Below are positions 8,916 to 51,334 of a stretch of DNA of 64,000 bases, in pieces. Origin of the DNA: Labia minor (lineage: Eukaryota > Arthropoda > Insecta > Dermaptera > Spongiphoridae); NCBI GenBank assembly GCA_963082975.1, contig OY720348.1, positions 52,588,421-52,652,420 of the forward strand, given 5' to 3'. A model generated the notes under the pieces. It was not told where the DNA came from. It was given only the letters and a program-made list of their open reading frames with translations, and ran no database searches. Both the position numbers and the translations under genes were made by a program. How positions within the stretch are numbered: position 1 is the stretch's first letter; each line of letters opens with the position of its first letter.

Positions 8916-9000
8916 CTAGATCATAGAGGCGCTGGTGGCGATAATTTGGCGATAATTTAAATTCTGAGCAATGTGCAGATAAAAATCTTTTTATATATCT
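8916..9000 (-). mobile_element. Very short Helitron (family L), internally deleted to about 85 bp
   Basis: On the minus strand it starts with a degenerate ATATATAAAAAG 5' end and GCACATTGCTCAG, as in the larger family C Helitrons. It ends CGC-CACCA-GCG, ten bases, then CTAG followed by T. The same 5' and 3' flanks surround a 611-bp version at 40783-41393, so this is a deleted copy of one insertion carried on both copies of repeat D. Confidence 0.6.
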
Positions 9001-9299
9001 ATTGATATTTACAATATCTCAATTGATCTTATTGGCCTTTTAAACTTTGATAACATTCACATTACGGCTATAATTTAATACTATTAATTTTTAAGATTAT
9101 GTGAGTAAATTATTTTAATTAAGAAAATTTAATCTCATAATTGGATTTTCACGTAAGATTTTAATATATAATATATTTTTTAATATTATTTTTATAGTAG
9201 TTTAGTGTTATGCTAATTTTATATTTTATTTTTATTTTGTTTACTCTGATTTTTTTTTAAATAAATTAATAGCATTTAAAGTAGCATAAAAAAATTAAT

Positions 9300-9640
9300 C
9301 GAGGCAGGAAAATTGATGGGGTTTGAAATTAATAGTGATAAGACAAAATAATTAGTATCAGAGAGAATAATATTTGCAAAGAATTTAAATCGAGGTTGCA
9401 ATCGGGAAATTATTATCAAAGGGGATCAAAATTATTAAATTATAGGTCATGAAATAGAGAAGGCTGGGGCCGACAGGGCACATGGCTAGCATGGGAGAGG
9501 AAAATATATTGGTGGGAGTTCGATTGGAAAACGTCCGTTTGGAAGACCAATTGTGAACAGGGTGGACAATGTAGGAAGGAACGTGAGAGAGATAGGATAG
9601 GGTAGGAGTTAGATGGTTATAGCTCAGAATAGGGACACTC
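9300..9640 (+). pseudogene. RTE-like LINE fragment inside repeat D (copy X)
   Basis: It contains parts of the reverse transcriptase C-terminal region (MGFEINSDKT-like) and then the AGHVARM-type tail in broken frames. The segment that would encode the VVLYGWEAW block, present in the other copy at 40150-40500, is missing here. It runs straight into the Helitron 3' terminus at 9641. Confidence 0.6.
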
Positions 9641-9711
9641 GGGGGGGGGGGTACAGGGGGCGGAGCCCCCGTCTAGGTGTGAAGAGCGCCGAAGGCGCTC
9701 TGATCAGCTAG
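9641..9711 (+). mobile_element. Family C Helitron 3' terminus
   Basis: GGGGGCGGAGCCCCCGTCTAG is followed by a perfect hairpin, GAGCGCC-GAA-GGCGCTC, then TGATCAG and a terminal CTAG (9708-9711) with T as the next base. This is the standard Helitron 3' end. Four other copies lie at 10189, 16487, 34598 and 51331, all followed by T in element orientation. The matching 5' end of this copy is not identifiable. Confidence 0.85.
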
Positions 9712-10437
9712 TGTTTAATAAATTGTACATATGTAAAATAAATGTCAAATTAAATCAAGCAAACATATTTATATTTGCAATTTGCAACTCTCACTATCCT
9801 TCCTTCACACATTCCATCCATCAAAACAAATCCATTCAGGTTGAATATTCAGAAAATATGCATTAATAAAAAAAACACTTGCATTAAATCTTAGTCATCT
9901 GAAAATGTCTAAACAGAACAGTGAATTTATAAAACCAAAATCATTGATGACCATATATACTTTTACAATTAGTATAAACATAATTTTATAATTTTATTTT
10001 AAATTTTAAATTTTAAATAAATCAAATATTTCAAATGTTAATTCGTATTAATACATTAAACTATTATGATTGATGGAATGATAGTGAAAGTTACAATTAC
10101 AAATATTAATATTTGTGATTTGGTAAAACTCTATGATTTTATTTGTCATTTATCTTATATATTTATATACAATTTATTATAAATATTACTAGCTGCTCAG
10201 AGCGCCTTCGGCGCTCTTCACACCTAGACGGGGGCTCCGCCCCCTGTACCCCCGCACTCGGGTACATAGTATTTGGTTGAAAGTAGTAAAAGGTTTTCAT
10301 CCATTTTGTTTCAATCCGTATATTACAAAAAACATTCATTTCTTTTTGTGTTCTTATTTAAAAATATATTTCAATTTAAAATCAGTAAATTAATTATATT
10401 TATTATTATTGTATATGGTATATCTATCTATCTATGT

Positions 10438-11410
10438 GGCTCAAAGATACTCGAAAGTTCTTGGCCGCAACAACCACATTTCTCCAAGTGTCCCTATCCT
10501 GAGCCCTTGTCCCATCTCTCTGTCGTCCCTTCCTACGCGCCATTGGTTTTCCAAGCGGACGTTTTCCAATCGGTCTCCCCACCAATATATTTTTCCTCTC
10601 CCATTCTAGCCACGTGTCCTGCCTATCGCAGCTTTTTCCCTATTATAACCCTAACTATTTCTGAAGATGCAGAGAGGCCATGCAATTTCTTGTTATGCAG
10701 TCTCCTCCATTCCCCGGTTACCTCATCTTTCTTTGGCCATTAAATGCAGGGAAGAATCCTATTCTCAAATACTCTGAATCTACTCTCATCTCCAAGGGTC
10801 ATAGACCATGCCTCCCACCCATATAATGCAACAGGCAAAATAATCTTTTTATATATTCCCTTTGATAATAATTTTCAAGAGATAAGCCTCTTTATTGCAG
10901 ATAACAGGCGTTTCCCGATTGCAACCCCGATTTAAATTCTTCTCAAATATTATTATCCTTCGTGTTTACATTCAATTTTTCTACATATTCAAATTCTACA
11001 TTTTGTATCTTAAGATTTTGTATGTTAATACTCTTCCTCTTTGTTACTAAATATTTTTTCTTATCACTATTAATTTCAAACCTCCATTAAATTATCTGTA
11101 ATTGCAATTGCCGAATCTCCTATTATATTTAAGTCGTCTGGGTAACCTAATATTTTACAATTGATTTCCGCATCTTATTCTTTCTTTACTACCTTCAAGA
11201 CAAATTTGAAGATTGAAAATTTGAAAAAGTTTATCCGGATCTATTGAGTCATGCGTATGTTTTACTAAAGTCTACAAATAATTAGTGAACAGAAATATTG
11301 AATTCGCGGTTTTTTTCCTAATATCTGTCATAATGAAAATATCTTAATTAATGTTGGTCGATTTGGCCTGAACCCGCAATGATATCTCCTAATATTTCCT
11401 CCGCCTATGG
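10438..11410 (-). pseudogene. RTE-like LINE reverse-transcriptase segment carried by the outer Helitron
   Basis: The minus strand encodes, in broken frames, an REFNISVH ... LVDF segment of the early reverse transcriptase domain. After a gap come a LGYPDD-LNIIGDS block at the position of the (F/Y)xDD catalytic motif, VVLYGWEAWSMTLGD, and the AGHVARM tail. The same gap and the same junctions occur in the other two Helitron copies, so the piece was already deleted when acquired or before amplification. It cannot encode a working enzyme. Confidence 0.8.
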
Positions 11411-11561
11411 TTCTTAAGTATTGTATATGTTATAATAGTGAAATAGAGTATAATATTTCTTGATCATTACATTTTGGTATTTTATTTTCATTGCTAGATT
11501 ATTATTGAATATTTTTAATTATAATGAAACTTGAGAAAATGCAAAAATAGAGACTTGAGAC

Positions 11562-12223
11562 CAGGGCCACGGCGTGCACGTGTGCAAGGTGGGCGCTGCC
11601 CACTGGCGCCTGGTGTAGGGGGCGCCAAACTGACCATTCTTTTTTATTTTATTTTAAGTGTTTTAAAAATGAATCAATATAATTGTGGACGTGAATCCTA
11701 CGACACGTTTAAATATATTTTCCAAATTTGTTTGTTTTACTGCGTATCTTTCTAACCTTGCCCGTAACTGTAGCTTCGGGTGAACGAAGCTTCTCTAAGT
11801 TAAAAATTATAAAAACGAATTTGCGTTCGACATTGTCGCAGGAGCGCTTAACAGATCTTTCTATGATAGCAATAGAAAATGAAATCATGGATAACTTAGA
11901 AATATATGATATTATTAAAGGTTTTGTAGCTTCAAAGGCTCGAAGAATCCGAATAGTATAGTTTTGTGATGGAATTTCATATTGTATTATGTTTTCATTT
12001 TTGAATTTTTTTTATGTTTATTGTTCTAGAAATTTAACCTTGTTTCTATTGTTAATGAGTTAATTATTTTGTTATTTCCTATTATTATGTAGATAAATTC
12101 CTCTGTATTCATAAACACAGTTTTCAAAATTAAATGTTTTATTTGATTTTATTCTTCTATTGATAGAGGGGGCGCTTTTTAAAAATTTGCACACGGGCGC
12201 TTTGCACCCACGTCGCGGCCCTG
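11562..12223 (+). mobile_element. hAT transposon with perfect 8-bp target duplication
   Basis: The ends read CAGGGCC and GGCCCTG and are flanked on both sides by CTTGAGAC (11554-11561 and 12224-12231). GGGGGCGCC and GCACACGGGCGC blocks form longer, imperfect subterminal repeats. At 662 bp it is an internally deleted copy that keeps only the 3' part of the transposase. Both other Helitron copies (near 15120 and 33215) have a single CTTGAGAC (as GTCTCAAG) at the same place, so the hAT element arrived after the Helitron copies separated. The duplication fits the Ac-group target pattern nTnnnnAn. Confidence 0.93.
11728..11961 (+). pseudogene. hAT transposase, C-terminal dimerisation region
   Basis: The 77-residue open frame includes TLPVTVASGERSFSKLK, LRSTLSQERLTDLSMIAIEN and a basic end (ASKARRIRIV). 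This is the C-terminal dimerisation (hATC) segment of hAT transposases, where the 'P.(S/T)..SERSFS' signature lies. Full hAT transposases are roughly 600 residues; the catalytic domain and zinc finger are absent here. It lies inside the element with matched ends and target duplication, so it is a deletion derivative rather than a host gene. Confidence 0.85.
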
Positions 12224-13661
12224 CTTGAGACAATTTATAAAAAAATTAACGGTATAAAACTATAGATAAATGACCAATATATACATTCATTAATAGTATT
12301 AATTTAAATTAATTGATTTATTTGTTTTTTTATTATTAAGTTCATTTATTAATTTTTTTAGATCATAGTTATTTTCCTTAAAAGAAACTTAAATTCTGTG
12401 GTGCTAGGGGATTTGAATATCATTCGTCGCAATATGAAGATTTCGCTTACAGTTTCTGTCATGTCCGACCTCCATCCAACAGTTATTTTCTGTCAAGTTT
12501 TTTGCTTCTCTTAATCATGTGATCTATATATTTAATTTTTTTTGATTCATTATAATAAAATTTAAACAAATAAAAATTTTTACTTTGTTAATTTATATAA
12601 ATTTCAATATAAACTGATTGTGAGTGATACGCTTAGCCAATACTCTGAATAATTTGTGTACAAAAATATTGAATGTTCTTAGCGAGATTTGATATAATGT
12701 TGTACGATTTGCCCTAAATCTGAATTAGAAGAAAATTATAAATTGCCTCCTCTTCCAGCCCAATTCATTTACCCACCCATGTTGCATATGGCATCTAAAT
12801 TTCTTAAAACTCCGTTTTTTTTAATTTAAAATAGGAGAGAAAGAGTTTTAAATTATATTCGAATAGTCTATATATTCTATATATCAGTATTTTTTTCTGA
12901 ATTTAATAGCAAGTTGATTTTAAAAATTTTCCATTCTTAATGCATATGATTGATTACATGTGTTAAAATTTAAAAAAATTCAAATATTCTAATTTTTATA
13001 TTTATATACAATTTAATATTATTTTTTATTAATATCATATAAAAAAAAGAGAATTTATTAAAAATTAAAAATAAAAAAAGAAGCCTATTAATAAAAAATG
13101 GAATGGTGATTTAAATATTTTATTAAATTAATTAAAATGAGACCTTTTAGAAAAAATTATTTAATTGAAATGATATTTAAATATAAGAATTTAAAAAAAT
13201 ATTATATTCTTTGTTTGACAATTGTTATTTAATTATGTGCAACATGATTCGACTTGCACAGAGCATCGTTATTTTTTATTAATATCACATAATAAAAATG
13301 AATCTTTTAAACATAATAAATAAAAAAGACATTTTAATAAATTTAAAAAATATACCCAATTTAAAAATGTCAAAAATTTAAAACAACTTTATATCATCAT
13401 ATTTTAATTTTTATATAATATATATATATATTTAGTAATTAATAATAGAGTAATTAAATTAAAATAAAAAACAAAGATAATATAATTCAGTCATTTTAAT
13501 TCAGGTTAAATAATATTTTTTTTTATTATTCAATGATAAAATTTATATCTATATATATAAAAAAAGGTTTTTGTCTGCACATTGCTCAGAATTTAAAATT
13601 TTTTGCATATCTTCGCGTTTCATGACCTCTAGAATCCAAAAGTGACTTTAGAATTTTTCAC

Positions 13662-13662
<1 letters not shown>

Positions 13663-13752
<90 letters not shown>
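13663..13752 (+). repeat. (GTCT)n microsatellite inside the inner Helitron
   Basis: About 22 near-perfect GTCT units. The equivalent tract is about 12 units in the outer Helitron, about 8 at 32260-32292 and 3 at 31556-31570, so it varies in length between copies, as in DINE-1-like elements. Confidence 0.95.
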
Positions 13753-15254
13753 CGGAAAATTACTATTTTATAGACTCAGAATTGGCTGAACCGATTTCTT
13801 TGAAATTACATCACAATATTCTTATATACCTCTAGAGTAACATAGGCTATAAATTTTATTAATATCTTATCAATAACCGCAGAAATTAATTTTTTAAAGT
13901 TTATATAATTCTCCGTGTTGTTCATTCAAGAGCAGCTCGCGGCTCACTGTCGGCCTAGCGGAATCATTTCAAACAATGAATTATCATAGAGATTCCCAAT
14001 CGAAGAATTATTATAATATTTCCCTTTTTATTTTAAATTCTAATATACAAATATCAATTCAATTAAATAATTTATTCTAAAAGTTCTCAATTTAATTAAA
14101 ATATTTATTAGATCATATTTTTATCTTAAATTATTTTTTATTTAATTGAATATTTCTTCTTTTCTATAATATATATATAATAATATATAAATTTTATCAT
14201 TGAATAATAAAAAAAAATATTATTTAACCTGAATTAAAATGACTGAATTATATTATCTTTGTTTTTTATTTTAATTTAATTACTCTATTATTAATTAACT
14301 ATATATATATATATATATATATTATATAAAAATTAAAATATGATGATATAAAGTTGTTTTAAATTTTTGACATTTTTAAATTGGGTATATTTTTTAAATT
14401 TATTAAAATGTCTTTTTTATTTATTATGTTTAAAAGATTCATTTTTATTATGTGATATTAATAAAAAATAACGATGCTCTGTGCAAGTCGAATCATGTTG
14501 CACATAATTAAATAACAATTGCCAAACAAAGAATATAATATTTTTTTAAATTCTTATATTTAAATATCATTTCAATTAAATAATTTATTCTAAAAGGTCT
14601 CATTTTAATGCAATTTATAATTTTCTTCTAATTCAGATTTAGGACAAATCGTACAACATTATATCAAATCTCGCTAAGAACATTCAATATTTTTGTACAC
14701 AAAATATTCAGAGTATTGGCTAAGCGTATCACTCACAATCAGTTTATATTGAAATTTATATAAATTAACAAAGTAAAAATTTTTATTTGTTTAAATTTTA
14801 TTATAATGAATCAAAAAAAATTAAATATATAGATCACATGATTAAGAGAAGCAAAAAACTTAACAGAAAATAACTGTTGGATGGAGGTCATGTAGAAACT
14901 GTAAGCGAAATCTTCATATTGCGACGAATAATTTTCAAATCCCCTAGCACCACAGAATTTAAGTTTCTTTTAAGGAAAATAACTATGATCTAAAAAAATT
15001 AATAAATGAACTTAATAATAAAAAAAACAAATAAATCAATTAATTTAAATTAATACTATTAATGAATGTATATATTGGTCATTTATCTATAGTTTTATAC
15101 CGTTAATTTTTATAAATTGTCTCAAGTCTCTATTTTTGCATTTTCTCAAGTTTCATTATAATTAAAAATATTCAATAATAATCTAGCAATGAAAATAAAA
15201 TACCAAAATGTAATGATCAAGAAATATTATACTCTATTATAACATATACAATAC

Positions 15255-16250
15255 TTATAAACTATAGGCGGAGGAAATATTAGGAGATATCATTGCGGGT
15301 TCAGGCCAAATTGACCAACATTAATTAAGATATTTTCATTATGACAGATATTAGGAAAAAAACCGCGAATTCAATATTTCTGTTCACTAATTATTAGTAG
15401 ACTTTAGTAAAACATACGCATGACTCAATAGATCCGGATAAACTTTTTCAAATTTTCAATCTTCAAATTTGTCTTGAAGGTAGTAAAGAAAGAATAAGAT
15501 GCGGAAATCAATTGTAAAATATTAGGTTACCCAGACGACTTAAATATAATAGGAGATTCGGCAATTGCGATTACAGATAGCGAGGAAAATTTAATGGAGG
15601 TTTGAAATTAATAGGGATAAGAAAAAATATTTAGTAACAAAGAGGAAGAGTATTAACATACAAAATCTTAAGATACAAAATGTAGAATTTGAATATGTAG
15701 AAAAATTGAATGTAATCACGAAGGATAATAATATTTGAGAAGAATTTAAATCGGGGTTGCAATCGGGAAACGCCTGTTATCTGCAATAAAGAGGCTTATC
15801 TCTTCAAAATTATTATCAAAGGGAATATATAAAAAGATTATTTTGCCTGTTGCATTATATGGGTGGGAGGCATGGTCTATGACCCTTGGAGATGGGAGTA
15901 GATTCAGAGTATTTGTGAATAGGATTCTTCCCTGCATTTATTGGCCAAAGAAAGATGAGGTCACCGGGTATGGGGGAGACTGCATAACAAGAAATTGCAT
16001 GGCCTCTCTGCATCTTCAGAAATAGTTAGGGTTATAAAAGGGAAAAAACTGCGATAGGCAGGGCACGTGGCTAGAATGGGAGAGGAAAAAGATATTGGTG
16101 GGAAGACCAATTGGAAAACGTCCGCTTGGAAAACCAATGACGCGTAGGAAGGGACGTAAGAGAGATGGAACAAGGGCTCAGGATAGGGACACTTGGAGAA
16201 ATGTGGTTGTTGCGGCTAAGAACTTTCGAGTATCTTTGAGCCACATAGGT
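15255..16250 (+). pseudogene. RTE-like LINE segment carried by the inner Helitron
   Basis: The same LINE piece as in the outer copy. REFNISVH lies near 15363-15390, then the gap, LGYPDD-LNIIGDS near 15522-15560, a VALYGWEAWSMTLGD block near 15850, and the tail ending about 16250. Frames are broken. Its borders inside the Helitron match the outer copy (10438-11410) and copy 3 (33355-34365). Confidence 0.8.
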
Positions 16251-16913
16251 AGATAGATATAACATATACAATAATAATATATATAATTAATATAGTGATT
16301 AAATTAAAATATATTTTTTAAATAAGAACACAAAAAGAAATGAATGTTTTATGTAATATACTGATTGAAACAAAATGGATGAAAACCTTTTACTACTTTC
16401 AACCACCAAATACTATGTACCACTCGGGGGTACAGGGGGCGGAGCCCCCGTCTAGGTGTGAAGAGCGCCGAAGGCGCTCTGAGCAGCTAGTATTATTATA
16501 TATATATTATAGAAAAGAAGAAATATTCAATTAAATAAAAAATAATTTAAGATAAAAATATGATCTAATAAATATTTTAATTAAATTGAGAACTTTTAGA
16601 ATAAATTATTTAATTGAATTGATATTTGTATATTAGAATTTAAAATAAAAAGTGAAATATAATAATTCTTCGATTCATTGTTTGAAATGATTCCGCTAGG
16701 CCGACAGTGAGCCGCGAGCTGCTCTTGAATGAACAACACGGAGAATTATATAAACTTTAAAAAATTAATTTCTGCGGTTATTGATAAGATATTAATAAAA
16801 TGTATAGCCTATGTTACTCTAGAGGTATATAAGAATATTGTGATGTAATTTCAAAGAAATCGGTTCAGCCAATTCTGAGTCTATAAAATAGTAATTTTCC
16901 GGACAGACAGACC

Positions 16914-16957
<44 letters not shown>

Positions 16958-17070
16958 TGAAAAATTCTAAAGTCACTTTTGGATTCTAGAGGTCATGAAA
17001 CGCGAAGATATGCAAAAATTTTTAAATTCTGAGCAATGTGCAGACAAAAACCTTTTTTTATATATATAGA

Positions 17071-17234
17071 TTATCACTTGGATCGCTGTGCGTTGATGTG
17101 GCGACATCTTGCGTTACCTGCGGTACTAGGCACCACAAAACTATATTAGTTACTTTAATGTAAATGTTTAATATAAACTTAGATTTGTTTTATATTATAT
17201 TTTCCTTTTAATATTAAATTAATTACAGAATATA
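17071..17234 (+). repeat. Repeat D, right part of copy X
   Basis: Continues repeat D beyond the outer Helitron and matches 39574-39735 in inverse orientation (GGCGACATCTTGCGTTACC and neighbours). The similarity ends near 17234. Confidence 0.8.
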
Positions 17235-17329
17235 TTATTTTAAAATCAAATTAAGATAAATAAATAAGAAAAAATTTTAAAATGTTTACATTATAAACAA
17301 AATATTGTAACTCACTCTTTGATATTACA

Positions 17330-31215: not shown

Positions 31216-31440
31216 ATTCTGATTAAATAATTAAAATATTACATATATCTTCGTCAGTATCGGTTTTGTTGTGTATTAATGTACGCGTATGTATATAGTT
31301 TTTTTTGCTGTACAAGGATAATTTATAAACATAATTTGCACATACTTATATAAACGTCCTCGCAGTTAATGGAGAATGTAATATAGTTAAGTGTGTAATT
31401 AATTATGTGTTACCTATCAATTTTTAATAATGCATAATCT
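31216..31440. other. Short AT-rich spacer
   Basis: Nothing recognised. Confidence 0.4.
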
Positions 31441-32143
31441 TCTATATATATAAAAAAAGGTTTTTGTCTGCACATTGCTCAGAATTTAAAAATTTTTGCA
31501 TATCTTCGCGTTTCATGACCTCTAGAATCCAAAAGTGACTTTAGAATTTTTCATGTCTGTCTGTCTGTCCGGAAAATTACTATTTTATAGACTCAGAATT
31601 GGCTGAACCGATTTCTTTGAAATTACATCACAATATTCTTATATACCTCGAGAGTAACATAGGCTATAAATTTTATTAATATCTTATCAATAACCGCAGA
31701 AATTAATTTTTTAAAGTTTATATAATTCTCCGTGTTGTTCATTCAAGAGCAGCTCGCGGCTCACTGTCGGCCTAGCGGAATCATTTCAAACAATGAATTA
31801 TCATAGCGATTCCCAATCAAAGAATTATTATAATATTTCACTTTTTATTTTAAATTCTAATATACAAATATCAATTCAATTAAATAATTTATTCTAAAAG
31901 TTCTCAATTTAATTAATTTAATAAAATATTTATTAGATCATATTTTTATCTTAAATTATTTTTTATTTAATTGAATATTTCTTCTTTTCTATAATATATA
32001 TATAATAATATATAAATTTTATCATTGAATAATAAAAAAAAAAATTATTTAACCTGAATTAAAATGACTGAATTATATTATCTTTGTTTATTATTTTAAT
32101 TTAATTACTCTATTATTAATTACTAAATATATATATATATATA
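31441..32143 (+). mobile_element. Family C Helitron 5' fragment (first of two 5' ends)
   Basis: It starts TCTATATATATAAAAAAAGG and runs about 700 bp through the CTCGCGGCTCACTGTCGGCC block into TA-rich sequence, then meets a second 5' end at 32144. The base before the start is T instead of the usual A. The GTCT tract has only three units. Confidence 0.82.
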
Positions 32144-32257
32144 TCTATATATATAAAAAAAGGTTTTTGTCTGCACATTGCTCAGAATTTAAAAATTTTT
32201 GCATATCTTCGCGTTTCATGACCTCTAGAATCCAAAAGTGACTTTAGAATTTTTCAC

Positions 32258-32292
<35 letters not shown>

Positions 32293-34601
32293 CGGAAAAT
32301 TACTATTTTATAGACTCAGAATTGGATGAACCGATTTCTTTGAAATTACATCACAATATTCTTATATACCTCTAGAGTAACATAGGCTATAAATTTTATT
32401 AATATATTATCAATAACCGCAGAAATTAATTTTTTAAAGTTTAGATAATTCTCCGTGTTGTTCATTCAAGAGCAGCTCGCGGCTCACTGTCGGCCTAGCG
32501 GAATTATTTCAAACAATGAATTATCATAGCGATTCCCAATAAAAGAATTATTATAATATTTCCCTTTTTATTTTAAATTCTAATATTTAAATTTCAATTC
32601 AATTAAATCATTTATTCTAAAAGTTCCCATTTTCATTAATTTAATAAAATATTTAGATCATATTTATATTAACTTAATTTTTATTTATTCTTTCTATATA
32701 TTTGAATATTTCTTCTTTTCTATATGAAAGTGAAAGGTTAAAAAATCTCGCTAAGAACATTCAATATTTCTATACACAAATTATTCAGAGTATTGGCTAA
32801 GCGTATCACTCAAAATCAGTTTAAATTGAAATTTATATAAATTAACAAAGTGAAAACTTTTATTTGTTTAAATTTTATTACAATGAATCAAAAAAAAAAT
32901 TAAATATATAGATCACATGATTAAATGAAGCAAGAAACTTGAGAGAATATAAATGATGGACGGAGGTCGGACATGACAGAAACTGTAAGCGAAATCTTCA
33001 TATTGCGACTAATAATTTTCAAATCCCCTTGCACCACAGAATTAGATAAGTTTCTTTTAAGGGAGGAAAATAACTATGATCAAAAAAAAATTAATAAATG
33101 AACTTAATAATAAAAAAACAAATAAATTAATTAATTTAAATTAATACTATTAATGAATATATATATTGGTAATTTATCTATAGTTTTCTACCGTTAATTT
33201 TTATATATTGTCTCAAGTCTCTATTTTTACATTTTCTCAAGTTTCATTATAATTAAAAATATTCAATAATAATCTAGCAATGAAAATAAAATACCAAAAT
33301 GTAATGATCAAGAAATATTATACTCTATTTCACTATTATAACATATACAATACTTAAGAACCATAGGCGGAGGAAATATTAGGAGATATCATTGCGAGTT
33401 CAGGCCAAATCGATCAAAATTAATTAAGATATTTTCATTATGACATATATTAGGAAAAAAAACCGCGAATTCAATATTTCTGTTCACTAATTATTTGTAG
33501 ACTTTAGTAAAACATACCATGACTCAATACATCCGGATAAACTTTTTCAAATTTTGATCTTCAAATTCGTCTTGAAGGTAGTAAAGAAAGAATAAGATGC
33601 GGAAATCAATTGTAAAATATTAGGTTACCTAGACGACTTAAATATAATAGGAGATTCGGCAATTGCAATAACAGATAGCGAGGAAAAATTAATGGAGGTA
33701 GGAAAAGAGATGGGGTTTGAAATTAATGGTGATAAATAAAAATATTTAGTAACAAAGAGGAACAGTATTAATATACAAAATGTAAAATTTGAATATGTTG
33801 AAAAATTGAATGTAATCACGAAGAATAATAATATTTGAGAAGAATTTAAATCGAGGTTGCAATCGGGAAACGCCTGTTATCATGCAGTAAAGAGGCTTAT
33901 CTCATCAAAATTATTATCAAAGACAATCAAAATTAAAACTCATAAAACAATTATTTTGTCTGTTGTATTATATGGGTGGGAGGCATGGTCTATGACCCTT
34001 GGAGATGAGAGTAGATTCAGAGTATTTGAGAATAGGATTCTTCCCTGCATTTAATGGCCAAAGAAAGATGAGGTAACCGGGGAATGGAGGAGACTGCATA
34101 ACAAGAAATTGCATGGCCTCTCTGCATCTTCAGAAATAGTTAGGGTTATAATAGGGAAAAAGCTGCGATAGGCAGGACACGTGGCTAGAATGGGAGAGGA
34201 AAAATATATTGGTGGGGAGACCGATTGGAAAACGTCCGCTTGGAAAACCAATGGCGCGTAGGAAGGGACGACAGAGAGATGGGACAAGGGCTCAGGATAG
34301 GGACACTTGGAGAAATGTGGTTGTTGCGGCCAAGAACTTTCGAGTATCTTTGAGCCACATAGATAGATATACCATATACAATAATAATAAATATAATTAA
34401 TTTACTGATTTTAAATTGAAATATATTTTTAAATAAGAACACAAAAAGAAATGAATGTTTTTTGTAATATACGGATTGAAACAAAATGGATGAAAACCTT
34501 TTACTACTTTCAACCAAATACTATGTACCCGAGTGCGGGGGTACAGGGGGCGGAGCCCCCGTCTAGGTGTGAAGAGCGCCGAAGGCGCTCTGAGCAGCTA
34601 G
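32144..34601 (+). mobile_element. Family C Helitron, copy 3
   Basis: From the second TCTATATATATAAAAAAAGG to the 3' hairpin and CTAG (34598-34601) before T. At 2458 bp it is shorter than the inner Helitron because the central AT-rich part is missing. It carries the same LINE segment and 3' tail, and keeps the unfilled hAT site (GTCTCAAG near 33212). No Rep-helicase ORF. Confidence 0.88.
33355..34365 (+). pseudogene. RTE-like LINE segment carried by Helitron copy 3
   Basis: This is the most readable copy. After REFNISVH and LFVDF come the shared gap, GYLDD-LNIIGDSAIAIT (here YLDD), SVVLYGWEAWSMTLGDESRF, KDEVTGEWRRLHNKKLHGL, AGHVARM and RPIGKRPLGKPM, with the end RDTWRNVVVAAKNF. Stops and frame changes separate the blocks. 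It derives from the palm and C-terminal part of a LINE ORF2 and is now only passenger DNA of the Helitron. Confidence 0.82.
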
Positions 34602-38292: not shown

Positions 38293-39573
38293 AAGGTAAA
38301 TGTACCAGTAGTTGAAACTTGTACATTCAATATCGGATAATAAGACATCTTTCTAAACATTTCTAAATGCGTGCTATATGAAAGTAATTCCTTCAAAATT
38401 AAATATGTGGAACTATAAAAGTTTGGAATCACCGTCTGAGTAGACGTCACAACAATTACTTTTTTGGATATTTTAAAATTTTGTTCTTCAAATCCTTAAG
38501 GAAGTAAGTTACTAATTTTTATTTTTATTCGTTTGTTTTTAGTATTGACATCAATATTAAATAATATTAATTGAATGTCCATATTACTTAGAAGATAATA
38601 ATATAAGATTTTAACTTAAGTGAAAGAATATTTAACATTAAGGCTATGTCAAGTACTCGGTGCTCAGAATAAATATCTGCATTATTAGTTGACAGTAATG
38701 TCAATTGCTGTTGCAGACGGTGAAGTAGTAATATTAAGTTAAATGTTATTCGGCTTGTGACACTATACACAAAAATGCTTTATTTTTTACATTATTATTT
38801 CATTATCCAGTAGTTGACTTCGGAGTCATCTACTGGTACAAGTTGGTTCCAGTAGTTGAGATAATTTCAAAAAGTAAAAAAAATGTGCACATTAAAGTAA
38901 ATTCATATGAAAGAGAATGTCTCATTGTTTTAATGAAAATATATGATTGAGAAAGAAATACAGAATATAAAAGTTTTTATGATATATGGAAAAATATTAA
39001 CTATTCGATTTTAAATTATCAGCCTAATGTTTCTGAAATAGGATGTGTACAACAACCCAAGATTGAAAAAGATTTTGAAGAAATTGAGGTTTACAATGAG
39101 GATTATACAGCATTTGAAATTATTAATAATACTGAGAATAATAATACTATTTCCAACCAAAATAGTGATAGCTTACAGATAAATTTTCATTCAGAAACCT
39201 CAAAATCAAACATACCTAGCCCTTTTAAAAACGTATTATAATAGTCATCTCCCCCTTTCAAAAATAAAGTTTTCCGGAAAAAGTACCGAATGTCCTAGAT
39301 AAATGGCAGGAGTACCACAATGTTAAACTGCTAAAGAAACTTCCAGCTGAGAAAAAATAAAACAAGAGAGAACTGCTGCTAGACTAAAAAAGTAGGAGGA
39401 AGAAAAATTTAAAAAGAAATCCCCAGAGAAAGCTAAAAATCAACGAAAGAAAAAAGAAAAAACAATCCATTATTTCATCATCGGAAGATAAAATTTAAAG
39501 AGCACCATCGGCGGGTAGCGGTTTGGATAGTATAATCTATCAACATAATTTTACATTTAAGTTGTATTTATTA
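38293..39573 (+). mobile_element. pogo-like element, left part
   Basis: After TA it starts AAGGTAAATGTACCAGTAG, the same terminal sequence as the element at 44218-48303. The CCAGTAGTTGA motif recurs at 38811 and 38848 and in inverse near 38832 and 41664. A pogo/Tigger-type transposase C-terminus lies inside. The right end is not clear, because repeat D and other insertions follow from 39574. Confidence 0.6.
38962..39500 (+). pseudogene. pogo/Tigger-type transposase C-terminal relic
   Basis: An open stretch of about 90 codons (SFYDIWKNINYSI to NIPSPFKNVL) leads into a lysine-rich, stop-broken tail with KWQEYH-like and KKEEEK-like words in shifting frames. PSPFKxVLxWP followed by a charged coiled tail and a serine-rich end is how many arthropod pogo/jerky-like transposases finish. 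The DDE catalytic core is absent. The family call is from motif memory and moderately sure. Confidence 0.6.
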
Positions 39574-40782
39574 TATTCTGTAATTAATTTAATATTAAAA
39601 GGAAAATATAATATAAAACAAATCTAAGTTTATATTAAACATTTACATTAAAGTAACTAATATAGTTTTGTGGTGCCTAGTACCGCAGGTAACGCAAGAT
39701 GTCGCCACATCAACGCACAGCGATCCAAGTGATAATAATATTTATAATAAATTGTATATAAATGACAAATAAAATCATAGAGTTTTACCAAATCACAAAT
39801 ATTAATATTTGTAACTTTCACTATCATTCCATCCATCATAATAGTTTAATGTATTAATACGAATTAACATTTGAAATATTTGATTTATTTAAAATAAAAT
39901 TATAAAATTATGTTTATACTAATTGTAAAAGTATATATGGTCATCAATGATTTTGGTTTTATAAATTCACTGTTCTGTTTAGACATTTTCAGATGACTAA
40001 GATTTAATGCAAGTGTTTTTTTTATTAATGAATATTTTCTGAATAGTCATTTCACCTGAATGGATTTGTTTTGATGTATGGAATGTGTGAAGGAAGGATA
40101 GTCCGAGTTGAAAGTATGTATATGGTTGCTTGATTTAATTTTACATTTATTTTATGACCTATATCTAGAGATGCATAGAGGTCATGCAATTCCTTGTTAT
40201 GCAGTCTCCGCCATTTCCCGGTGTCCTCATCTTTCTTTGGCCCATAAATGCTGGTAAGAATCCTATTCTCAAATACTCTGAATCTACTCTCATCTCCCAG
40301 GGTTATAGACCATGCCTCCCACCCATATAATACAATTAATAATTTAATAATTTTGATCCCCTTTGATAATAATTTCCCGATTGCAATCTCGATTTAAATT
40401 CTTTGCAAATATTATTCTCTCTGATACTAATTATTTTGTCTTATCAAATTAATTAATTTCAAACCCCATCACTTTTCCTGTCTCGATTAATTTTTTTATG
40501 GCTCTTTAAATGTTATTAATTTATTTTAAAAAAAAACACAAAGTAAACAAAATAAAAATAAAATATAAAGAAATTAGCATAACAGTAAACTACTATAAAA
40601 ATAATATTAAAAAATATATATTAAAATCTTACGTGAAAATCCAATTATGAGATCAAATTTTCTTAATTAAAATGATTTACTCACATAATCTTAAAAATTA
40701 ATAGTATTAAATTATAGCCGTAATGTGAATGTTTTCAAAGTTTAAAAGGCCAATAAGATCAATTGAGATATTGTAAATATCA
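39574..40782 (-). repeat. Repeat D, copy Y (carries the outer Helitron's empty site)
   Basis: Inverted relative to 9001-10188 plus 17071-17234. At 39735/39736 it reads straight through CCAAGTGATAA-TAATATTTATAA, where copy X holds the 6.9 kb Helitron. It contains a LINE remnant (40150-40500) with a different internal deletion from copy X and lacks the Helitron 3' end present in X. The origin of the repeat is unknown; no ORF. Confidence 0.78.
40150..40500 (-). pseudogene. RTE-like LINE fragment in repeat D (copy Y)
   Basis: On the minus strand, from GAGGCAGGAAAAGTGATGGG through part of the YGWEAWSxTLGDESRFRVF region to the KKDEDTGKWRRLHNKELHDL region. The AGHVARM tail is cut off. Complementary in content to the copy X fragment at 9300-9640. 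Confidence 0.65.
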
Positions 40783-41393
40783 ATATATATATAAACAGAT
40801 TTTTATTTGCACATTGCTCAGAATTTAAATTTTTTTGCGTATATTCGCGTTTCATGTCCTCTAGAATCCAAAAGTGACTTTAGAATTTTTCATTTCTGTT
40901 CGTAGACTATAAATTTTATTAATATCTAATCAATAACCGCAGAAATTAATTTTTAAAAATTTGATATAAACATGTCATTTAGCAGCGCAAAGAATACAAT
41001 AAAAAAGATGTTTTTAATATTTATATTTATATTTTTATTTTTCTAATATTTACAATATTTCAATTAATCATATAGTTTTTTATATATGTTTATTTATGCA
41101 CAAAAAATTAATTGACATAATTATTAATTTAATAAAATAAAATTTAATTTAATAAAATTAATTTAATAAAATAAAATAATTTAATAAAATATTAAAATAA
41201 TAAAAATTAATAAATTTGTAAAAAAAATATATAATATTTAAAAAAAATGTACCTTTGCGAGTTTCGAACCAAGAGTGCAAAGTCATAAGATAACGCCTTA
41301 GACCGTTGACCCATGAAACACTTTTGTTTGCACGTCTACTATTAGAATATATAGACATGTCAAATTTTCGCCACCAGCGACTCTATGATCTAG
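40783..41393 (+). mobile_element. Helitron family L: family C 5' end joined to a different 3' end
   Basis: The first 190 bases match family C (GCACATTGCTCAG, TCGCGTTTCATGTCCTCTAG, CCGCAGAAATTAATTTT). The 3' end is unrelated to the GC-rich family C terminus: it reads CGC-CACCA-GCG, then ACTCTATGAT, then CTAG (41390-41393) before T. A tRNA-like stretch is carried inside. An 85-bp deleted version of this insertion is at 8916-9000. Confidence 0.65.
41250..41346 (-). mobile_element. tRNA-derived segment inside Helitron L
   Basis: The minus strand reads CATGGGTCAACGGTCTAAGG (A-box-like D arm) and, about 35 bases later, TTGGTTCGAAACTC (B-box-like T arm), then a T run (plus-strand A run at 41240-41248) that could end pol III transcription. 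The acceptor and anticodon stems do not pair well, so it is a tRNA-derived SINE head or decayed tRNA, not a working tRNA gene. Confidence 0.5.
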
Positions 41394-49301: not shown

Positions 49302-49424
49302 AGATTTTTGTCTCTACATTGCTTAGAATTTAAAAATGTTTACATATACCTCTTTACATTTCTTGTTCTGTAAAATATAAATAAAATTTTAGAATTTAGT
49401 TTATTTGTCTGTCCAAGAAGACAC
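49300..49424 (+). mobile_element. Degraded family C Helitron 5' end
   Basis: AAGATTTTTGTCTCTACATTG and CTTAGAATTTAAAAATG resemble the family C 5' region, with a trace of the GTCT tract (TTTGTCTGTCC) just before a SINE I copy begins. Confidence 0.5.
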
Positions 49425-51100: not shown

Positions 51101-51334
51101 TAAAAAACAAGCATTTTTATATTTATACTAGGAAAATTTGTTGTTGATTAAATTAAAATATATTTTCCAAGAAAACAAATATATGTCTTATCTACTTATA
51201 CTGATTGAAACAAAATGGATGAAAACCTTTTACATACAGACTTTCAACCAAATACTATGTATCACTCGGGGGTACAGGGGGCGGAGCCCCCGTCTAGGTG
51301 TGAAGAGCGCCTGGAAGGCGCTCTGATCAGCTAG
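51101..51334 (+). mobile_element. Family C Helitron 3' end without the LINE segment
   Basis: From ATTGAAACAAAATGGATGAA through the GGGGGCGGAGCCCCCGTC block to a hairpin with a 2-base enlarged loop (GAGCGCC-TGGAA-GGCGCTC) and CTAG (51331-51334) before T. No 5' end or LINE part nearby. Confidence 0.78.

Follow-up and report, generated by a model that had tools for sequence, protein, structure and literature searches.

Results

A Helitron inserted head-on into a relative

The window analysed here is a stretch of 64,000 nucleotides of the Labia minor genome (C10:52588421-52652420), and its low G+C content and few long open reading frames fit an A/T-rich animal genome. It contains a Helitron of 2943 bp on the plus strand (13548-16490) that lies within an outer Helitron on the minus strand (10189-17070), which measures 3939 bp without the inner one. 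Both elements carry the canonical Helitron ends (5' TC, 3' CTRR) in the form TC...CTAG, as do the 30 best-scoring loci in the genome, each of which matches the query end to end. The junctions of the inner element read AAAATTTATA|TCTATATATA...GAGCAGCTAG|TATTATTATA (left flank|start...end|right flank), with an A before the TC start, a T after the CTAG end and no target duplication. The insertion point is A^T, which is the customary way of writing it for Helitrons, and could equally be written one base rightward as T^A. The preliminary description had reported a plus-strand inner Helitron within a minus-strand outer one, inserted between A and T without target duplication; our analysis confirmed the ends of the inner element to the base and found the A and T, and no duplication, at both junctions.

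Removal of the inner copy had also been predicted to restore uninterrupted sequence present elsewhere in the window, over about 45 bases. The restoration is exact, and the matches are considerably longer than that. The reverse complement of the joined flanks agrees with the inner copy itself over 162+112 = 274 bp without a difference (14024-14297, plus strand; junction 14185|14186), and the joined flanks match a further copy (31441-32143) exactly over 89+32 = 121 bp (31922-32042, plus strand; junction 32010|32011), both junctions falling within the regions proposed earlier for alignment (14140-14230 and 31980-32050). The second of these empty sites belongs to the 5' module of a composite Helitron at 31438-34601. 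The locus is a Helitron inside a Helitron, in head-on orientation, at A^T, without duplication and with exact empty sites, and the event itself, insertion of a Helitron into a relative, is an ordinary one.

Just upstream of its 3' CTAG the inner element has a hairpin stem-loop (16462-16480, plus strand); the DNA fold of 16451-16490 reaches -14 kcal/mol (z -5.38), a value equalled by none of 200 shuffles. Near its 5' end lies a (GTCT)22 microsatellite (13662-13749, plus strand). We found no Rep gene within the inner element, and a likeness to the C-terminus of a LINE reverse transcriptase at 15750-16260 was rejected, as it had no Pfam support and the region gave only a primase match below the cut-off. 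An Rfam search returned no matches at the gathering thresholds, and neither a comparison of the inner element with plasmids nor a search of viral contigs with a 22-base 5' pattern gave a match.

The outer element and the inverted repeat

The outer Helitron also sits at an A^T target and has an empty site of its own in the window, an uninterrupted paralogue of its flanking DNA at 39569-40154 (minus strand), which matches one flank over 166 bp at 99.4% and the other over 459 aligned positions at 87.8% in a gapped alignment. This site belongs to a larger inverted paralogous segment (39569-40831 versus 8954-10188 plus 17072-17237) that also contains the relic of an older Helitron. Older relatives of the Helitron studied here, now diverged, have ends at 8956-9008, 9647-9711, 40780-40899, 49304-49334 and 51145-51334.

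Within the outer element we identified a hAT-type insert of 662 bp (11562-12223, plus strand) with inverted CAGGGCC ends and an 8-bp duplication, CTTGAGAC, on either side, as expected of hAT elements; it includes a match to the hAT dimerisation region (PF05699, E 3.5e-11, plus-strand frame 11713-11958). The insert is missing from the inner and third copies in the alignment. When the whole nest was used as query, 24 of the 29 scored among 7663 candidates were copies of the outer type that matched at 96-98% across the hAT insert, which indicates that a subfamily of the Helitron carries the hAT piece along. The outer Helitron was already in place before the inner one arrived, and together they form the large imperfect inverted repeat that had been described between 10189-13547 and about 14150-16490. 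This repeat is real, with its second arm measured as 14186-16490 and a spacer of 638 bp, and might, as had been suggested, extrude as a hairpin; beyond this pair, 13548-14185 and 16491-17070 form a second one with a spacer of 2305 bp.

Subfamilies and age of the inner copy

Although the two elements belong to the same family, the outer one is not, as first proposed, a copy of the inner one but a member of a different subfamily, since the two differ at 56 of 2864 aligned sites (2808 agree; 2804 of 2864 under another alignment setting). An origin of the inner element from the outer copy is ruled out by these differences and by the existence of zero-substitution copies at other loci. Four loci (L002, L003, L004 and L005) show no substitution relative to the inner copy over 2939, 2935, 2915 and 2907 sites, respectively, and the sole difference is the microsatellite, with 22 GTCT units in the inner copy and 21, 20, 15 and 13 in these four. 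The remaining 25 of the 29 compared loci differ from it at 27-38 sites. Because of this identity with four copies elsewhere in the genome the inner copy looks young, and sequence comparison suggests that it comes from a recently active subfamily and that the family has moved very recently.

Family size and frequency of nesting

Searching the genome (604 Mb, 71 contigs) yielded 2864 exact matches to a 31-base pattern for the 5' end and 2577 to an 18-base pattern for the 3' end. When the first 100 5' ends along contig C1 are considered, at least 77 have a 3' end within 8 kb, with a median length of 3122 bp. From the copy count and this median length of paired copies we roughly estimate that the family makes up about 1.5% of the genome. 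As a position-ordered sample we used the 5' flanks of 95 of these first 100 5' ends, leaving out the last five. In this sample an A precedes 75 of 77 canonical 5' starts when TCT extensions are counted as part of the element. The 5' end adjoins close kin in 5 of the 95, corresponding to three distinct junctions (L070, L071 and L121, which share one, L082 and L122), and older relatives in two more (L046 and L064). This frequency is not clearly above the estimated genome share of the family and hence gives no clear overall excess of self-insertion.

Among the 30 best-scoring loci, L001, L003, L021 and L024 each sit within a single interrupted relative that continues on either side, and L005 and L015 are joined to another copy in other ways, with a perfect CTAG|TCTATA tandem joint read at L015 and others indicated in match tables. 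The self-nest share is lower in the position-ordered sample, and we set the share among best-scoring copies aside as a rate, since such a list may favour clustered copies. Exact 50-bp empty sites exist for all four clean self-nests, in 34-46 places each among the loci searched. Judged by sequence, the genome contains several nests of this kind, the pair in the window being one.

The recurrence of nests of the same form elsewhere also argues against an artefact of assembly and against a conversion tract or inversion in place of an insertion. Long inverted repeats are generally difficult to assemble; against this stand the exact canonical ends, the exact empty sites, the two different subfamilies and a microsatellite length of 22 units that is not found in the four otherwise identical copies. 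A local assembly error is also less likely because the window lies 52.6 Mb into its contig, and we consider these explanations very improbable.

Head-on junctions in an A/T-rich stretch

The inner element entered its relative in a region, at about element positions 622-638, that is 93-95% A/T over 40 bp, and the A/T content of the element is highest, at 90%, at positions 601-800. We searched the genome with a pattern for head-on junctions no more than 12 bp from GATAAAATTTATA, using the reversed pattern as control, and obtained 18 places versus none in the control. They fall on six insertion points, with gaps of 0, 2, 5, 8, 10 and 12 bp at 3, 2, 7, 1, 2 and 3 places, respectively, which correspond to the A^T points that the stretch offers within that range. 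Five of the seven gap-5 places have raw gaps of 8 or 11 and were assigned to this point on the view that TCT or TCTTTA belongs to the element as a 5' extension, which seems to be the case at other loci as well. For two of the 18 places, the window and C1:14.23M (L082), the reading extended past the pattern into the surrounding element. The latter is a second head-on nest, at C1:14227149-14233521, deduced from where its four ends lie and from one flank, and has its target 5 bp from that in the window. At C1:66391057-66401310, four direct and two head-on junctions lie within about 10 kb, probably a multiple nest.

Intact copies of the stretch number 1160 genome-wide and are present in 16 of 30 position-ordered copies. 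From 2864 insertions we roughly expected 0.13 head-on events in the stretch, or 0.20 after the largest A/T-class effect, with the background composition taken from the 64-kb window alone; the A/T class of the 5' flank raises insertion at most 1.59-fold (77 insertions).

Gap-0 head-on junctions like that in the window also occur at C6:70531614 and C10:42967104, which would be in line with arrival of the nest as a whole, the outer element having transposed with the inner one already inside; a head-on inner terminator should, we infer, not stop the outer element. However, the window is the only full match among the 29 scored of 7663 candidates, and at least 18 of the 24 outer-type copies run uninterrupted over the insertion point, which makes such an arrival improbable.

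Direct junctions and composite elements

Direct-orientation junctions in the same stretch occur at 55 places genome-wide, with none in the control. Gaps of 0 (17 places) and 11 (22 places) dominate; other gaps are 2, 3, 4, 8, 14 and 17, at 2, 4, 1, 5, 2 and 2 places, respectively. Two of these gaps, 3 and 17, do not coincide with A^T points in the stretch of the window; where the letters are shown, they derive from a TCT or TCTTAA extension or from a shorter host run. The dominant junctions look amplified, and places are not equivalent to events.

For direct junctions at element position 622|623 we counted 18 left-hand and 10 right-hand places. Both patterns are found at two loci, C5:54.41M and C5:64.41-64.42M, and at the second of these two tandem elements seem to occupy the gap. 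At C4:23314843, a left junction with gap 3 lies 3.3 kb from the right-hand place. Among the places listed, 16 left-hand ones have no right-hand partner and seven right-hand ones no left-hand partner. The left-only places would fit elements that transposed with the outer 5' end and the inner 3' end as their termini, and the right-only places perhaps reflect read-through in which the inner 5' end was paired with the outer 3' end. The parts inserted at 622 differ, with 28 substitutions from the inner copy at L024 versus none at L005, which may mean more than one hit at this point.

The window itself contains a composite Helitron (31438-34601, plus strand) with one 3' end and two 5' ends 703 bp apart, at 31441 (31438 when its TCT extension is included) and at 32144, a structure predicted for an element that has left a direct self-nest by transposition. 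A similar form is suggested at C1:48.32M, where intact stretches lie 703 and 713 bp apart. Direct self-insertions seem to have given rise to chimeras with two 5' ends, in keeping with a model proposed for Fusarium Helitrons. Apparent tandem 5' modules, with direct junctions spaced 566-622 bp, lie at C9:13888942-13890216 and C6:2554914-2555520.

Discussion

First, we propose that a Rep-less Helitron of a recently active subfamily very probably inserted head-on at an A^T of the A/T-rich stretch of a relative, about 640 bp from its 5' end and in opposite orientation. From what is known of Helitrons, the inner element would have been moved by a Rep/helicase protein encoded at another genome locus, by rolling-circle transposition and probably via a circular intermediate. 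The Helitron Rep domain (PF14214) has 104 matches in the genome and none in the window; several lie in open frames longer than 1600 aa, about 1650 aa with identical scores, and these are candidate partners only. The A/T stretch would have been hit repeatedly, direct hits giving chimeras with two 5' ends that moved on and head-on hits giving long inverted repeats such as that at 10189-17070.

Second, the stretch hit here appears, from the junctions matched, to have been struck many times in this genome, and two explanations of this recurrence have to be weighed. The one towards which we lean holds that A/T-richness alone guides insertion, thousands of copies nest by chance, and chimeras are then amplified. 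This is in line with the estimated occupancy of about 1.5% and the three distinct junctions in 95 copies, with the A/T peak of the element coinciding with the stretch, and with the amplified appearance of the gap-0 and gap-11 direct junctions. Yet an A/T effect of at most 1.59-fold is too small for the head-on count if the six points represent separate events. Alternatively, the family might prefer its own A/T stretch, for example while it is unwound as a resident copy is peeled off, and the window would be one product of this preference. The 18 head-on junctions at six points within 13 bp, set against an expectation of 0.13-0.20, the 55 direct junctions in the same stretch and the 1160 intact stretches as denominator all speak for such a preference. 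Of the five zero-substitution copies, those in the window and at L003 are head-on nests and L005 is part of a direct chimera, but this supports it weakly because the window was picked for being nested. Moreover, nests can be copied and TA/TTA slippage can turn one junction into another, so that the independent head-on events may number only three (Poisson P 0.0012, compared with 8e-8 for six); the expectation covers the 5'-side preference only and takes its background from the window, and the position-ordered sample as a whole has no clear surplus of self-insertions. A preference of the family for its own sequence is therefore a tentative and rather doubtful proposal. In that case, and with the same reserve, self-insertion might produce two-ended chimeras and runs of 5' modules, which would serve as new mobile families and tandem-repeat seeds, and head-on events might produce long inverted repeats.

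Third, in the parts of the literature on Helitron nesting, self-insertion and satellites that we covered, the nearest known system is FoHeli of Fusarium oxysporum, for which the sections consulted present a model in which two 5' ends arise from self-insertion (PMC5148889). Like FoHeli, the family described here shows self-insertion and elements with several 5' termini and one 3' terminus, and the legend of Fig. 8 of that paper proposes head-on insertion as found here. FoHeli elements are non-canonical fungal Helitrons with one nested example in the sections consulted, whereas in this family the TC...CTAG ends are canonical and the empty sites exact, and a single genome contains dozens of junctions. 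The same literature, which mostly lies outside subscription journals, yielded no report of a recurrent self-insertion stretch. The insect Hel-2 elements are likewise non-autonomous, with TC...CTAG ends, A/T flanks, a 3' stem-loop and a (CTGT)n tetranucleotide microsatellite after the 5' end, as is present here (PMC4344730); the likeness lies in these structural features, and the two-element Hel-2 consensus is 339 bp, compared with 2.9-3.9 kb here. Insertion at A^T, preference for A/T-rich targets and, perhaps, read-through past the 3' end are shared with Helraiser and bat Helitrons (PMC4778049), although Helraiser, a reconstructed bat Helitron that has been assayed in cells, codes for its own protein, unlike the element here. 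Helentrons and DINE-1 similarly have a 3' palindrome and a microsatellite, and DINE-1 is reported to prefer T/T (PMC4067079). Membership of the Helentron/HINE group was ruled out by insertion at A^T rather than T/T.

Finally, what adds interest to this otherwise ordinary insertion is that it looks young and that junctions recur in the stretch it entered. A Helitron self-insertion that is exact to the base and seemingly young lies in the window, and the genome seems to contain the complete series, from the empty site through direct and head-on nests to chimeras with two 5' ends. Such a series would allow the idea that self-insertion gives rise to new Helitron families to be tested on real loci.
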